DNA from: a bacterium
GTDB lineage: Bacteria; DYJV01; JALVYZ01
Assembly (NCBI GenBank): GCA_027037705.1
Contig: JALVYZ010000193.1
Location: 1-12,640, forward strand
Length of the DNA stretch: 12,640 bases
Direction: 5' to 3'
Part shown: positions 2,807 through 11,271 of the stretch, piece after piece
How the letters are laid out: each line of letters starts with the position of its first letter
Numbering within the stretch: the stretch's first letter is position 1
The notes under the pieces: model-generated
What the model saw: only the letters and a program-made list of their open reading frames with translations
Told to the model about the DNA's origin: nothing
The model's database searches: none
Program-made: the position numbers and the translations under genes

Positions 2807-2849
2807 TTTAAACAATAATAAATATTAATACTATTTAACAATGTTTTTA

Positions 2850-2878
2850 TTGACTAAAATCAAAAACAATATTATATT
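2850..2878 (+). promoter_or_regulatory. Sigma70-type promoter for the sufC-sufB-aat operon
   Basis: TTGACT (2850-2855), a 17-base spacer, then TATATT (2873-2878): each hexamer matches consensus at five of six positions with ideal spacing. It ends 31 bases before the sufC ATG, leaving room for a short leader containing the GGAGG site. The -35 and the next five bases (TTGACTAAAAT) are identical to those of the argB promoter in this window. No Fe-S regulator box (IscR/SufR) was recognised. Confidence 0.65.
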
Positions 2879-2899
2879 TAAGAAAGTTTTATTCAATCT

Positions 2900-2904
2900 G
2901 GAGG
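2900..2904 (+). promoter_or_regulatory. Ribosome-binding site fixing the sufC start
   Basis: GGAGG lies five bases before the ATG at 2910. It decides between that start and an in-frame ATG at 2841, which would add 23 residues with no family similarity, has no Shine-Dalgarno sequence, and lies upstream of the predicted promoter. Confidence 0.8.
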
Positions 2905-2909
2905 TAAAT

Positions 2910-3641
2910 ATGTTAGTAATTGAAAATTTACATGTAGAAGTTGAGGGAAAAGAAGTACTGCATGGGATAAACATGAGTATTTTAAAAGGAGAAACTCATG
3001 TAATTTTTGGAAAAAATGGAAGTGGGAAAACTACTCTTTTATTGACTCTTATGGGATTTGAAAAATATAAAGTAACTCAAGGCAAAATATATTTTAAAGG
3101 AAAAGATATTACCAATGTCCCAATGTATGAAAGAGCAAGAATGGGTATGGGGATGGCTTTTCAGAGGCCACCTGCTATAAAAGGCCTAAAAACAAAAGAT
3201 ATTTTGAAAAAAATAAAAAACGTTGATTTTTCAGTTGAAGATATTGCTAAAAAGGCTAATTTTGAAAATTTTTTAGACAGAGATCTAAATTGGGGGTTTT
3301 CAGGTGGAGAATTAAAAAGGTCAGAGATGGCACAATTGCTTGCTCAAAATCCTGATTTCATTATGCTTGATGAACCAGAATCTGGGGTAGATGTTGAAAA
3401 TATAAAACTTATTGGAAAAATTGCAGCAATATTATTGGAAAAACATAAAAGATTAAAAGAAGGTAGAAATAAATCTGGACTAATTATTACTCATACAGGA
3501 TTAATTTTAGATTATATAGATGCTGATAAAGGACATGTATTATTAGATGGATACCTTGTTTGCACAGGAAATCCAAGAGAAATGTTTAAATTAATACAAG
3601 AAGAAGGATATGAGAGGTGTATAAAATGTATGATGAATTAA
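2910..3641 (+). CDS. sufC: SufC-type Fe-S cluster assembly ATPase
   Basis: SufC is the soluble ABC-type ATPase that binds SufB and drives conformational changes needed for Fe-S cluster assembly on the scaffold. The 243-residue product carries Walker A GKNGSGKT (34-41), the Q-loop in FQRPP (84-88), the signature FSGGE (130-134), Walker B with the SufC-typical MLDEPESGVDVE (152-163) and the H-loop histidine in ITHTG (H195). There are no membrane segments and no transporter gene nearby; the next gene is the SufB scaffold, which separates this from transport ABC proteins. It is the first gene of the sufC-sufB-aat run and overlaps sufB by 16 bases, which suggests translational coupling. Length and start match the family. 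It resembles the compact SufC of two-gene (SufCB-only) systems, since no sufD, sufS, sufU or sufE is present alongside. Confidence 0.95.
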   Translation: MLVIENLHVEVEGKEVLHGINMSILKGETHVIFGKNGSGKTTLLLTLMGFEKYKVTQGKIYFKGKDITNVPMYERARMGMGMAFQRPPAIKGLKTKDILKKIKNVDFSVEDIAKKANFENFLDRDLNWGFSGGELKRSEMAQLLAQNPDFIMLDEPESGVDVENIKLIGKIAAILLEKHKRLKEGRNKSGLIITHTGLILDYIDADKGHVLLDGYLVCTGNPREMFKLIQEEGYERCIKCMMN

Positions 3642-4846
3642 AAAAGAAAGCTGAAGAGGCACTAAATAAAAAGCCATCAATAGGTGAAGATATAGATTTA
3701 AATGCTTTTAGACATGATGCTCCTGAATATGAATATGACCCTAATTTGACTAAAGTATTAGATGAAAAAGAAAAAGAAAATTTAGAAAGTATTGGAATTG
3801 ATGTAAAAAGAGAAACGAGAGCTGGTTCTTTTATACAAACAGATCATTCTGTTGTCCAATGCAATGTTAAGCAAGAAGGTATTGAAATATTACCAATGAA
3901 AGAAGCAATGAAAAAATATGAATGGTTAAAGGATTACTGGTGGAAAGCTGTAAGTGTTGATACAGATAAATTTACTGCTGAAGCTGAACTTCACTTTGAT
4001 AATGGTTATTTTATTAGAGCAAAAAAGGGTGTAAAAACAAAATTTCCTCTTCAAACATGCTTATATATTTCAACTGACAATCTTGTGCAACATGTTCATA
4101 ATATTATAATTGCTGAAGAAGGTGCTCAACTTGATATTATATCTGGATGTGCTACCTCTCATAAAGTAAATTCTGCTCTACATGTTGGAATTAGTGAATT
4201 TTATATAAAAAAAGGTGGCAAAATTACATTTACAATGATTCATAGATGGGGAGAAAATATAGCTGTTAGACCAAGAAGTGGCACCATAGTAGAAGATGAT
4301 GGGGTTTTTATATCAAATTACATATCTTTTGAAAAAGCCAAATCATTACAGATGAATCCTATTACATATTTAAATGGCAAAAATGCAACAGCAATATTCT
4401 CATCAATAGTTTTTGCTCCAGAAGGCTCAAATATTGACCTTGGCTCAAGAATTATTTTAAATGGTGAAAAATCAAAAGCAGAAATAATTTCAAGAACCGT
4501 TTCAAATGGTGGGAATGTAATTGCAAGAGGACAGCTTGTTGGGAAAGCACCAGAGATTAAAGCACATCTTGAATGTAATGGTTTAATGTTAAAAGATAAA
4601 GGATATATTAACGCAATTCCAATTTTAGAGGCTCATCATAATAATGTTGATATGAGTCATGAAGCTGCAGTTGGGAAAATTGCACAGGAAGAAATTGAAT
4701 ATCTAATGGCAAGAGGTTTAACAGAAGAAGAAGCAACTTCAATTATTGTTAGAGGATTTTTGAATGTAAAAATTGAAGGATTACCTAAAAAATTAGAGAG
4801 TCAAATTGAAAATTCATTAAATGAATTACAAGATAAATTTTTCTAA
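3626..4846 (+). CDS. sufB: SufB-like Fe-S cluster scaffold
   Basis: SufB/SufD-family scaffold on which Fe-S clusters are assembled in complex with SufC. I choose the ATG at 3626 (406 residues), 8 bases after GAGAGG; a GTG at 3617 in the same frame would merge with that ribosome-binding site. The C-terminal core is diagnostic: HLECNGLML (314-322) places C317 at the position of the essential E. coli SufB Cys405 (alignment from memory), and DMSHEA (342-347) supplies the conserved His-Glu. The C-terminal segment LMARGLTEEEATSIIVRGFL (360-379) is the family helix. The protein is shorter than E. coli SufB (about 495), lacking much of the N-terminal region, as in archaeal and deep-branching two-gene systems. 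Retention of Cys and His-Glu favours SufB over SufD. With no second SufB/D gene, the scaffold may be a SufB homodimer with two SufC. Confidence 0.92.
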   Translation: MYDELKKKAEEALNKKPSIGEDIDLNAFRHDAPEYEYDPNLTKVLDEKEKENLESIGIDVKRETRAGSFIQTDHSVVQCNVKQEGIEILPMKEAMKKYEWLKDYWWKAVSVDTDKFTAEAELHFDNGYFIRAKKGVKTKFPLQTCLYISTDNLVQHVHNIIIAEEGAQLDIISGCATSHKVNSALHVGISEFYIKKGGKITFTMIHRWGENIAVRPRSGTIVEDDGVFISNYISFEKAKSLQMNPITYLNGKNATAIFSSIVFAPEGSNIDLGSRIILNGEKSKAEIISRTVSNGGNVIARGQLVGKAPEIKAHLECNGLMLKDKGYINAIPILEAHHNNVDMSHEAAVGKIAQEEIEYLMARGLTEEEATSIIVRGFLNVKIEGLPKKLESQIENSLNELQDKFF

Positions 4847-8917: not shown

Positions 8918-9238
8918 ATGAAAGGCTTTGGCAATATGATGAAACAGATTAAGTTAATGCAACAAAAAATGCAAAAAATTCAGGAAGAACTTGCTGAAAA
9001 AAAGGTAGAAGGTAGTGCTGGCGGTGGAATGGTTACAGCAGTTGTTAATGGCAAACAAGAATTACTTGAAATTAAAATAGATAAAGAAGTTGTTGATCCT
9101 GAAGATGTTGAAATGTTACAAGATCTAATAGTCGCTGCAGTTAATCAGGCATTAAAAAAATCTCAAGAAATGATGAATGAAGAAATGGCAAAATTGACCG
9201 GTGGCCTTGGCATTAATATTCCAGGATTGTTTGGATAG
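8918..9238 (+). CDS. ybaB: YbaB/EbfC-family nucleoid-associated protein
   Basis: YbaB/EbfC proteins are small dimeric DNA-binding proteins that coat the nucleoid and influence transcription. The 106-residue product has the long N-terminal coiled helix rich in Met, Gln and Lys (about 5-30), the central sheet with [20 protein letters not shown] (36-55), the conserved [19 protein letters not shown] (61-79) and the Gly-rich tail ending NIPGLFG. The size is normal. A strong AAGGAGG (8907-8913) precedes the ATG. In many bacteria ybaB lies between dnaX and recR; here neither is present and the gene instead leads directly into the double-cubane/dehydratase pair, whose ribosome-binding site overlaps the ybaB stop codon. 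That arrangement implies cotranscription but no known functional tie. Confidence 0.95.
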
Positions 9239-9247
9239 GAGGATATT

Positions 9248-10477
9248 ATGAAAAAGCCGTTAAAATCTTTTAAAAAGATGCGTGAATTAATGTCAAAACA
9301 TTTTCATGAAGTTTATGAAGCAAGCCAGGATGATAAACAAAAAGTTGCTTGGTGTACAAGTGTTGGGCCAGCTGAATTATTACATTCTTTTGGTTTTAAA
9401 GTTTATTATCCTGAGAATCATGGTGCAATGATTGGAGCAAGTAAAAAAGCTTCTGAATATATTCCATATGCTAATGCCATAGGATATTCTCAAATGATAT
9501 GCTCCTATTTAACAAGTGATATTGGAGCATTTTTAAAAGGTGAAACTCCTTTACAAAAGGCATATAATATTCCATCAATTCCAAAACCAGATGTTTTAGT
9601 TTATAATACAAATCAATGTAGAGATGTTTATGACTGGTTTAGTTTTTATGGAAGAAAATTTAATGTGCCAGTCATTGGTATAAGTTCACCAGTTAATGTT
9701 GGAGAAGTGACTGAAAATATAATAAATGATGTTGCAACACAGATGAAATCTTTAATTCCTACTTTGGAAGAGGTTTCAGGAACAAAATTTGATATTGATA
9801 GATTAAAAGAAGTAGTTAAACTATCATATGAATGCACAAAATTATGGAAAGAATGTTTATTTTTTGGCACTCATATCCCAAGCCCTTTAACTTTTTTTGA
9901 TTATACTGTTTTAATGGCTCCAGCTGTTGTTTTAAGAGGTCTTCCTGAAGCAATTGATTTTTACAAGGAAGCAAATGAAGAAATAAGACAGGAAATGAAA
10001 AAAGGTTTAACAGCAGTACCAGATGAAAAAGTTAGGCTTTATTGGGAAGGAATGCCTATCTGGGGAAGATTAAGAATGCTTGCAGAATTATTTTATGAAC
10101 TAAACACTTCAATAGTAGTCTCAACATACTGTAATAGCTGGATATTTGAAGATTTTGCATACGATTTTGACAGACCTTTTGAATCAATGGCAAAAGCTTA
10201 TACAGAGTTATTTATTGTAAGAAATGAAGAAGTAAAAGAGAAAGTTATTGCAAATTGGATAGAAGAATTTAAAGTAGATGGAATTATCTATCATGAAGCA
10301 ATGACATGTCCTAACAATTCTAACACAAGATATGGGATGCCAAAAAGATTACAAGAAAAAACAGGCAAACCTTACTTAATAATAAATGGTGATTTAAATG
10401 ATATGAGATTATTTTCTGATGAACAAGCACGTACAAGTATTGAAACTTTTATAGAACAAATTCTGGAGAATAAATAA
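9248..10477 (+). CDS. BcrC/BadD/HgdB-family Fe-S protein, double-cubane (DCCP/YjiM)-like
   Basis: Member of the 2-hydroxyacyl-CoA dehydratase D-component family, which holds Fe-S clusters and receives low-potential electrons from an ATP-hydrolysing activator. The 409-residue protein has seven cysteines: AWCTSVGPAELL (C36), MICSYL (C85), NQCRDVYDW (C124), C196, C203, STYCNSW (C295) and MTCPN (C354). Classical enzymes need two subunits of this fold (HgdA/HgdB, BcrB/BcrC); only one is encoded here, directly before its activator, as in E. coli YjiM/YjiL and the double-cubane cluster protein (DCCP) of Carboxydothermus, a homodimer whose [8Fe-9S] cluster uses six cysteines per subunit. Seven cysteines allow that, but which ones are ligands I cannot show. 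Substrate unknown: a small molecule, as tested for DCCP, or a 2-hydroxyacyl-CoA. The AGGAGG site overlaps the ybaB stop; its own stop overlaps the activator start by one base. Confidence 0.85.
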   Translation: MKKPLKSFKKMRELMSKHFHEVYEASQDDKQKVAWCTSVGPAELLHSFGFKVYYPENHGAMIGASKKASEYIPYANAIGYSQMICSYLTSDIGAFLKGETPLQKAYNIPSIPKPDVLVYNTNQCRDVYDWFSFYGRKFNVPVIGISSPVNVGEVTENIINDVATQMKSLIPTLEEVSGTKFDIDRLKEVVKLSYECTKLWKECLFFGTHIPSPLTFFDYTVLMAPAVVLRGLPEAIDFYKEANEEIRQEMKKGLTAVPDEKVRLYWEGMPIWGRLRMLAELFYELNTSIVVSTYCNSWIFEDFAYDFDRPFESMAKAYTELFIVRNEEVKEKVIANWIEEFKVDGIIYHEAMTCPNNSNTRYGMPKRLQEKTGKPYLIINGDLNDMRLFSDEQARTSIETFIEQILENK

Positions 10478-11271
10478 TGTATTATCTTGGTTTGGACCTT
10501 GGAAGCACATGGTGTAAAGGAGTTATAATTGATAATAAAAAAGAAGTTATTGCAACATCTCTTGAAAAAACAGGTTATAGTTTTATAGAAACATCAGAAA
10601 AACTTCTTGATGAGTTATTTAAAAAAAGTTCTTTAAAAAGAAAAGATATAACTAAAATAGTTGCCACAGGATATGGTAGAAAAAGTATTGAAATTGCAGA
10701 TATTATAAAAACAGAAATTATGTGTCATGCAAAAGGTGCTTATCACTATTTTCCAGAAAAGTTTATTTTAATAGATATTGGAGGACAGGATAATAAGATT
10801 GTCCATATAGGTGAAAATGGTGAAATTTTGAATTTTAAATTAAATAGAAAATGTGCAGCAGGAACTGGCGCTTTTATAGAAGAATCATTGTCAAGACTTC
10901 AGGTGCCTTATGAAAAAGTTAAAGAATTAATAGAAAAATCAGATAAAGATATTACTATTGCCAGTTTCTGCACTGTTTTTGCACAAACTGAAATTATTAA
11001 ATTAATTAAAGAGAATGAAAAAGTTGAAAATATTATAAAAGGAATTTTTAACTCAGTTGCAACAAGAGTTATTGAGATGGAAACACTCCATGGAACAGTA
11101 GTATTAACTGGTGGAGTTATTGCATTTTATCCATTTTTTAAAGAAATTTTAGAAAAAAAAGCAAATTGTAAAGTTAAAGTCCCTCCTTATCCACAATTTT
11201 CAGGTGCTATTGGTGCTGCTCTGTTTGGATTAAATTCTGAATTTCATAAAAAACATCAATTGGTTTTATAA
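10477..11271 (+). CDS. BadF/BcrA/HgdC-family activator ATPase (DCCP reductase/YjiL-like)
   Basis: Homodimeric ATPase of the ASKHA fold that carries one [4Fe-4S] cluster between subunits and uses ATP hydrolysis to inject a low-potential electron into its partner. In 264 residues it shows the phosphate-1 loop LGLDLGSTWCKG (4-15), IDIGGQDNK (99-107, phosphate 2), RKCAAGTGAFIEE (124-136) and ASFCTVFAQTEII (162-174), and LTGGVIAFYP (210-219, adenosine motif). C126 and C165 lie at nearly the same positions as the cluster ligands of Acidaminococcus HgdC (C127, C166). Its ATG overlaps the stop of the preceding gene (TAATG), with GGAG at 10465-10468, so the pair is translationally coupled and probably made in fixed ratio. 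The last roughly 13 residues follow the conserved GAIGAALFGL and are encoded where the convergent waaF overlaps by 65 bases. Confidence 0.93.
   Translation: MYYLGLDLGSTWCKGVIIDNKKEVIATSLEKTGYSFIETSEKLLDELFKKSSLKRKDITKIVATGYGRKSIEIADIIKTEIMCHAKGAYHYFPEKFILIDIGGQDNKIVHIGENGEILNFKLNRKCAAGTGAFIEESLSRLQVPYEKVKELIEKSDKDITIASFCTVFAQTEIIKLIKENEKVENIIKGIFNSVATRVIEMETLHGTVVLTGGVIAFYPFFKEILEKKANCKVKVPPYPQFSGAIGAALFGLNSEFHKKHQLVL

Follow-up and report, generated by a model that had tools for sequence, protein, structure and literature searches.

The overlapping genes H and A, which encode a lone dehydratase-like subunit and its ATP-dependent activase, are best explained in full as a one-subunit 2-hydroxyacyl-CoA dehydratase-type system, a reading to which we give a probability of about 0.5. 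H is a member of the superfamily of 2-hydroxyacyl-CoA dehydratases and benzoyl-CoA reductases, which are ATP-powered iron-sulphur enzymes, and it appears to do without the second subunit on which its known relatives depend. It represents an uncharacterised family whose genes lie next to others for the degradation of acids, probably aromatic ones. We hold with high confidence that H is a one-subunit, catalytic-type component D. The family is real, conserved and found in many lineages; it is a one-subunit form of an enzyme type already known, and is not DCCP. The substrate is very likely an acyl-CoA, judging from the genes that surround relatives of H, while the dehydration itself and the proposal that the substrate is an aryl compound are the least certain parts.

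Locus layout

The window, which is the whole stretch of DNA analysed (12,640 nucleotides), is the entire contig C193 of G000, a draft genome that totals 2.05 Mb. Both ORFs described in the initial annotation, of 409 and 264 residues and overlapping by one base (TAATG), were present as claimed. The following features were mapped around them:

8918-9238: YbaB-family gene, 9 bp ahead of H
9237-9242, + strand: AGGAGG, a Shine-Dalgarno-like motif for H that overlaps the YbaB-family stop codon
9248-10477, + strand: H, 409 residues, a component D of catalytic type that stands alone; HGD-D superfamily (PF06050, 2.8e-64)
10477-11271, + strand: A, 264-residue ATP-dependent activase (archerase) of the HgdC/HadI/BcrA-D type
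10852-10854, + strand: Cys126 codon of A, for a ligand of the cluster that two A subunits share (4eht/1hux alignment)
10969-10971, + strand: Cys165 codon of A, for the other ligand of this cluster (4eht/1hux alignment)

The end of A is overlapped by the 3' end of a heptosyltransferase gene on the opposite strand. Upstream of H, at 2841-4846 of the window, SufC- and SufB-like genes were recognised by reading, and aat-, trmFO-, argB- and trxB-like genes lie between them and H.

A matched TIGR00241 with 228 bits (cutoff 125), PF01869 (2.6e-51) and the HadI structure PDB 4eht (E 5.6e-56), with C126 and C165 aligning with HadI, so that the earlier description of an activator carrying both cluster cysteines was confirmed. 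An A-type gene was found nearby in 70 of 83 relatives of H, and less than 60 bp away in 51.

Family, fold and tree position of H

The closest PDB sequence to H was HadB (3o3m_A, E 1.4e-54). An AlphaFold model of H made with 52 homologues (pLDDT 94.9, pTM 0.92) aligned with HadB from end to end (Z 51.4, rmsd 1.6 A, 392 residues), and gave Z scores of 46.7 with BzdO, 42.7 with MbdO and 33.5 with both DCCP and the beta-type HadC. In the phylogenetic tree two sides were separated with full support, one holding DCCP, YjiM, BzdN, HadC and MbdN and the other HadB, BzdO, MbdO and H, and on this catalytic side H formed a 100/100 clade. A denser tree of the catalytic side again gave H a 100/100 clade of its own, beside HadB-, MbdO- and C424b-like groups, with BzdO outside the HadB/MbdO part that holds H (100/97). 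MbdO as a sister of H, seen in one tree (94/83), lost its resolution in the denser tree, making it weak evidence for a reductase role. H stayed below the HadB cutoff, with 245 bits against 750, and below those of the benzoyl-CoA reductase equivalogs TIGR02260 and TIGR03191, with 167 against 486.55 bits and 89.5 against 448.6, respectively.

Three known systems resemble the pair. HadBC/HadI (PDB 3o3m, 4eht) shares with H and A the catalytic fold, the three cluster cysteines, the active-site Glu and the activase; unlike HadBC, H has no HadC-like beta subunit, carries an extra conserved C295 and usually C36, and is 31% identical. BzdNOPQ and MbdONPQ (PDB 8s02, 9gai) have an O-type catalytic subunit with the three cysteines and the Glu65 equivalent, a BcrA/D-type activase and neighbourhoods with Had/Oah, whereas H and A come without the double-cubane N subunit and with one activase gene rather than two. 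DCCP/DCCP-R and YjiM/YjiL (PDB 6eno, 7yyl) likewise consist of one subunit with the superfamily fold and one activase, but H lies on the other side of the tree, shows 17% identity, and has an incomplete ligand set.

In the initial annotation the last of these likenesses was taken to mean that H and A are a DCCP-type system, in which an [8Fe-9S] protein reduces small molecules. YjiM/YjiL likewise pair a single subunit with a dedicated activase, which speaks for this reading, as does the alignment of C85, C124, C295 and C354 with double-cubane ligands and of C36 one residue off. The tree, the profile score, the fold and the cysteines nonetheless led us to reject DCCP membership. Forcing H and DCCP into one clade cost 123 log-likelihood units (p-AU 6.8e-14), and on NF040772, the double-cubane family model, H scored 64 bits against a cutoff of 350. 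The annotation had itself named, as counting against a DCCP type, a tree with H among the dehydratase and reductase subunits and a separate partner elsewhere; in our tree H was on the catalytic HadB/BzdO/MbdO side, and six genomes had no separate partner. With the ligand and neighbourhood results given below, we regard the DCCP-type reading as highly improbable.

Cysteines and predicted cluster sites

The seven cysteines earlier listed for H (36, 85, 124, 196, 203, 295 and 354) were verified at their positions. The five that the family alignment picks out are as follows:

9353-9355, + strand: Cys36 codon, adjoining the invariant Trp35, one residue off the BzdN ligand C36
9500-9502, + strand: Cys85 codon, predicted [4Fe-4S] ligand, equivalent to HadB C84, BzdO C95 and BzdN C73
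9617-9619, + strand: Cys124 codon, predicted [4Fe-4S] ligand, equivalent to HadB C117, BzdO C128 and BzdN C100
10130-10132, + strand: Cys295 codon, family-specific, aligning with the double-cubane ligand C263 of BzdN
10307-10309, + strand: Cys354 codon, predicted [4Fe-4S] ligand, equivalent to HadB C346, BzdN C327 and, by homology, BzdO C380

C85, C124 and C354 were invariant (83/83), and from the alignment they are predicted to hold the catalytic [4Fe-4S] cluster of H. C295 occurred in 80 of the 83 relatives and was absent from the remaining catalytic side; C36 occurred in 82, the exception being a Val in G001, which has the nearest relative (71% identity), and MbdO also has a Cys at this position. 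C196 and C203 were variable. The active-site Glu, E56 (equivalent to BzdO E65), was invariant in true members of the family.

Of the six double-cubane ligands of BzdN, four aligned with Cys in H, C36 was out of register and the counterpart of C293 was missing, so that the expected conservation of all six DCCP ligand cysteines was not borne out: four aligned, one was shifted and lost in G001, and one was absent. In addition, the conserved Trp35 aligns with BzdO W46, which in the BzdNO structure occupies the space of the lost sub-cluster (PMC11971306). Taken together, the missing C293 counterpart, the shift of C36 and its replacement in G001, and Trp35 make a complete [8Fe-9S] cluster in H unlikely, and we infer a cluster of the [4Fe-4S] type. 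The nearest relative itself (L042, G001:C140, 8439-9653), with Val for Cys36, has no adjoining activase gene.

A one-subunit state across relatives

In a scan of a genome collection 257 relatives of H were found, and the best 80 of the 257, with 55-61% identity and from many bacterial phyla and archaea, were retained. The neighbourhood survey then covered 83 members of the family, with HadB, HadC, BzdN, BzdO, MbdO, MbdN, DCCP, YjiM and the other HGD-D proteins of G000 as queries. The family is widespread among sediment bacteria and archaea, including Desulfobacterota, Planctomycetota, Aminicenantes, Chloroflexota, Zixibacteria, Asgard archaea and Thermoplasmata. Within 7 kb of the 83 relatives no second HGD-D gene was found, apart from one paralogue in G007, and in whole-genome counts H was the sole HGD-D protein in 6 of 26 genomes (G063, G064, G079, G080, G082 and G083); the assemblies of G063 and G064 each consist of one complete chromosome. 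It therefore seems that component D works without a second kind of subunit, presumably as a homodimer. The earlier proposal of one subunit with its own activase and an ATP-driven reaction was thus upheld, as the state is conserved and several genomes lack any partner.

An apparent second subunit in 22 loci was an artefact of single-linkage clustering that arose from a fused ORF; almost all of the proteins involved resemble ketopantoate reductase (KPR). The real exception among the 22 was the G007 paralogue (L043, G007:C81, 10603-12732), a paralogue of H whose three cluster cysteines are gone and which carries a fused KPR-like domain. A further paralogue without these cysteines was found in G026 (L045, G026:C212, a small contig), where the frame opens with a KPR-like stretch. 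Could these two cysteine-less paralogues represent an independently evolved second subunit?

It was also stated in the initial annotation that no second dehydratase subunit, CoA-transferase, acyl-CoA dehydrogenase or aromatic-degradation gene is in the window. The window is one contig only, and the rest of the genome carries a subunit pair on contig C424 and many acyl-CoA genes. The suggested search for HgdA-like partners elsewhere in the genome accordingly returned a two-subunit HAD-type pair with an activase (C424) and a lone HGD-D protein (C305). The three further HGD-D genes in G000, and a C305-like protein in G001, give some ground for supposing a heterodimer of H with an HGD-D protein from another locus, in G000 the C305 protein or the C424 subunits. 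However, H is the sole HGD-D protein of six genomes, including two complete chromosomes; C424 comes with a partner and an activase of its own, and no match to it was found in G001. G004, in which no H turned up, also has a C305-like match. A heterodimer is consequently considered very improbable.

As to the two loci themselves, L005 (G000:C424, 2-3018) is a classical two-subunit HAD-type set with its own activase, in which the beta-like subunit is cut by the contig start and the HadB-like subunit is 37% identical to H, with relatives of the latter in G015, G045 and G074. L006 (G000:C305, 9216-10229) encodes a lone 337-residue HGD-D protein, scoring 53 bits on the double-cubane model; it is flanked by a PpiC-like gene and pyrF and has no adjoining activase; it has a homologue in G001:C72, and the match in G004 is a lone HGD-D protein of similar size.

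Neighbouring genes and a probable acyl-CoA substrate

A CoA ligase, AMP- or ADP-forming, was encoded at 60 of the 83 loci, a beta-oxidation-type gene at 45, and a KPR or GlcD-type gene at 44 (26 GlcD, 23 KPR, 5 both); at least one gene of these kinds was present at 76. As there are few KPR-family genes per genome (two in G000, four in G001), a KPR gene in a 15-kb stretch at 28% of the loci is far above the roughly estimated chance level of about 1%. In a panel of 60 genomes, AMP-ligases at least 50% identical to that of G000 were confined to the H-bearing G000, G001 and G007, and thiolase matches of at least 56% to the H-bearing G000 and G001. Contig C6 of G000 carries a thiolase, the AMP-ligase, a KPR, an enoyl-CoA hydratase, a 3-hydroxyacyl-CoA dehydrogenase and a second ligase; G001 has the same set together with an indolepyruvate:ferredoxin oxidoreductase and a TRAP transporter. 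Since the pathway genes of G000 lie on contigs other than C193, where H and A follow the YbaB gene, the link in G000 rests on gene-set homology.

The neighbourhoods vary by lineage, and in the Asgard loci a MaoC hydratase comes after H. Acyl-CoA-degradation neighbours of this kind make a small inorganic-type substrate unlikely, and they count against the DCCP-type reading as well; the small-molecule reduction put forward at first is therefore improbable, as relatives of H sit among genes for the degradation of CoA esters.

Links to the benzoyl-CoA pathway

Among the enzymes dedicated to this pathway are Had (TIGR03201) and Oah (TIGR03200). Oah was found over its cutoff in 10 of 15 genomes with H and in none of 14 controls, and Had in 6 of 10 tested, G001 included, while linkage of Dch, Had and Oah within 7 kb was seen at 18 of the 83 loci. 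In L064 the gene order is Had-Dch-A-H, with Dch scoring 439 bits against a cutoff of 292.5. In G001 two acyl-CoA-dehydrogenase-like genes, a thiolase, a Dch-like gene, Had and Oah are consecutive, and contig C341 of G000 carries a glutaryl-CoA dehydrogenase (over cutoff), a Dch-like gene and a Had cut by the contig end. In G083, a Syntrophus MAG, H lies within an Oah-Dch-HAD-Had-IorA-H-thiolase run and A within a separate KPR-A-AMP-ligase run.

These findings might mean that H and A are a one-subunit, ATP-dependent aryl-CoA reductase of the benzoyl-CoA type, feeding dienoyl-CoA to Dch, Had and Oah. Apart from the distribution of Oah and Had, the L064 order and the G083 run in a genome where H is the sole HGD-D protein, this is favoured by the presence of MbdO, a subunit of 3-methylbenzoyl-CoA reductase, in the same part of the tree. 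Next to H no BzdN/HadC-type subunit was found in G001, G063 and G083, all with Had and Oah over cutoff, nor in G064, where Oah is present and Had is below cutoff; H could thus be the ring reductase in these four genomes. On the other hand, G060, G069, G075, G076 and G077 have true BzdNOPQ-type operons on the contig that carries H, at a distance of about 6-15 kb. BzdN and BzdO of G060 are above their cutoffs, and G069 and G075 share the order Bzd, Had-like, Dch, Oah-like, AMP-ligase, thiolase, H. The reductase reading is lowered by these operons, and further by G080, in which H is the sole HGD-D protein and neither Oah nor Had is over cutoff, as well as by the scores of H below the benzoyl-CoA reductase cutoffs and its lack of a double-cubane electron-storage subunit. 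We therefore regard an aryl-CoA reductase as unlikely, though deserving some weight; that H and A form a homomeric, Birch-type benzoyl-CoA-type reductase without a double-cubane subunit in G001, G063 and G083 is, in our judgement, doubtful. In the approximately 1.07 Mb read of the roughly 2.1-Mb G083 genome two AOR-family genes were seen, neither of them identified as BamB.

Proposed one-subunit dehydratase

Known 2-hydroxyacyl-CoA dehydratases are alpha-beta heterodimers in which a cluster of the beta subunit stores the electron; from the activase the electron passes to the beta cluster and on to the catalytic cluster, where a ketyl radical is formed, the hydroxyl group is lost and the electron is recovered (PMC11574389). 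By analogy, a homodimer of A around one [4Fe-4S] cluster would use ATP to drive an electron into H. In the H homodimer the open iron of the C85/C124/C354 cluster would bind the CoA thioester of the substrate, giving a ketyl radical, and an (R)-2-hydroxyacyl-CoA, probably aryl-lactyl-CoA-like, would be dehydrated to a 2-enoyl-CoA. The beta-oxidation genes might then hydrate, oxidise and cleave this product, leading into benzoyl-CoA-type ring degradation. Candidate stand-ins for the electron-storing beta subunit are the second H subunit, or C295 together with C36.

The proposed order of the module would be a 2-oxo/(R)-2-hydroxy acid enzyme, a CoA ligase, H and A, a hydratase, a dehydrogenase, a thiolase and ring-degradation genes. 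Such an order suits the dehydration of a 2-hydroxyacyl-CoA, perhaps aryl-lactyl-CoA, yielding benzoyl-CoA-type products, and it is plausible that the KPR and GlcD-type proteins are the (R)-2-hydroxyacid enzymes. The dehydratase proposal is supported by KPR/GlcD genes at 44 of 83 loci, the fusion of KPR to the G007 paralogue, the MaoC genes of the Asgard loci and the nearby BzdNOPQ; true BzdNOPQ reductases close to H in several genomes favour the upstream step, and a proposed dehydratase role would in turn explain why these genomes keep a separate benzoyl-CoA reductase beside H. Dehydration is thus more likely than ring reduction. Against it stand the lack of a beta partner, whereas the known enzymes are alpha-beta heterodimers, and the breadth of the KPR and GlcD families. 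A literature search for a one-subunit dehydratase found no report.

Another ATP-dependent radical step on an acyl-CoA was considered as well; it might, for instance, take a substituent off the ring reductively or reduce an alicyclic enoyl-CoA. Four loci have molybdenum hydroxylase genes, which are nearest to 4-hydroxybenzoyl-CoA reductase but below its cutoff, and the differences in neighbourhood between lineages would also fit; we consider such chemistry rather improbable.

In class I benzoyl-CoA reductases, too, the catalytic subunit is paired with a partner, the double-cubane subunit (PMC11971306). With a family that has neither this nor a beta subunit, the role of the second subunit becomes directly testable. 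In a deep-sea seep survey, Aminicenantes, Anaerolineae and Thermoplasmata were among the groups with class I bcr genes, a result that its authors termed surprising (PMC6472368); lone H genes could be among the class I bcr counts of that survey, with the caution that true BzdNO genes also occur in such genomes.

Two further observations were made. An 835-residue protein of G000 (L052, G000:C125, 1934-4438), encoded away from H, has two BadF/BcrA-type activase domains in one chain. In the Asgard loci L062, L083, L085, L090 and L130, H, MaoC and GlcD are followed by an AOR-family enzyme, a ferredoxin and a small ORF of ThiS/MoaD size, and it is possible that these genes are a tungsten aldehyde/acid module of the same pathway.
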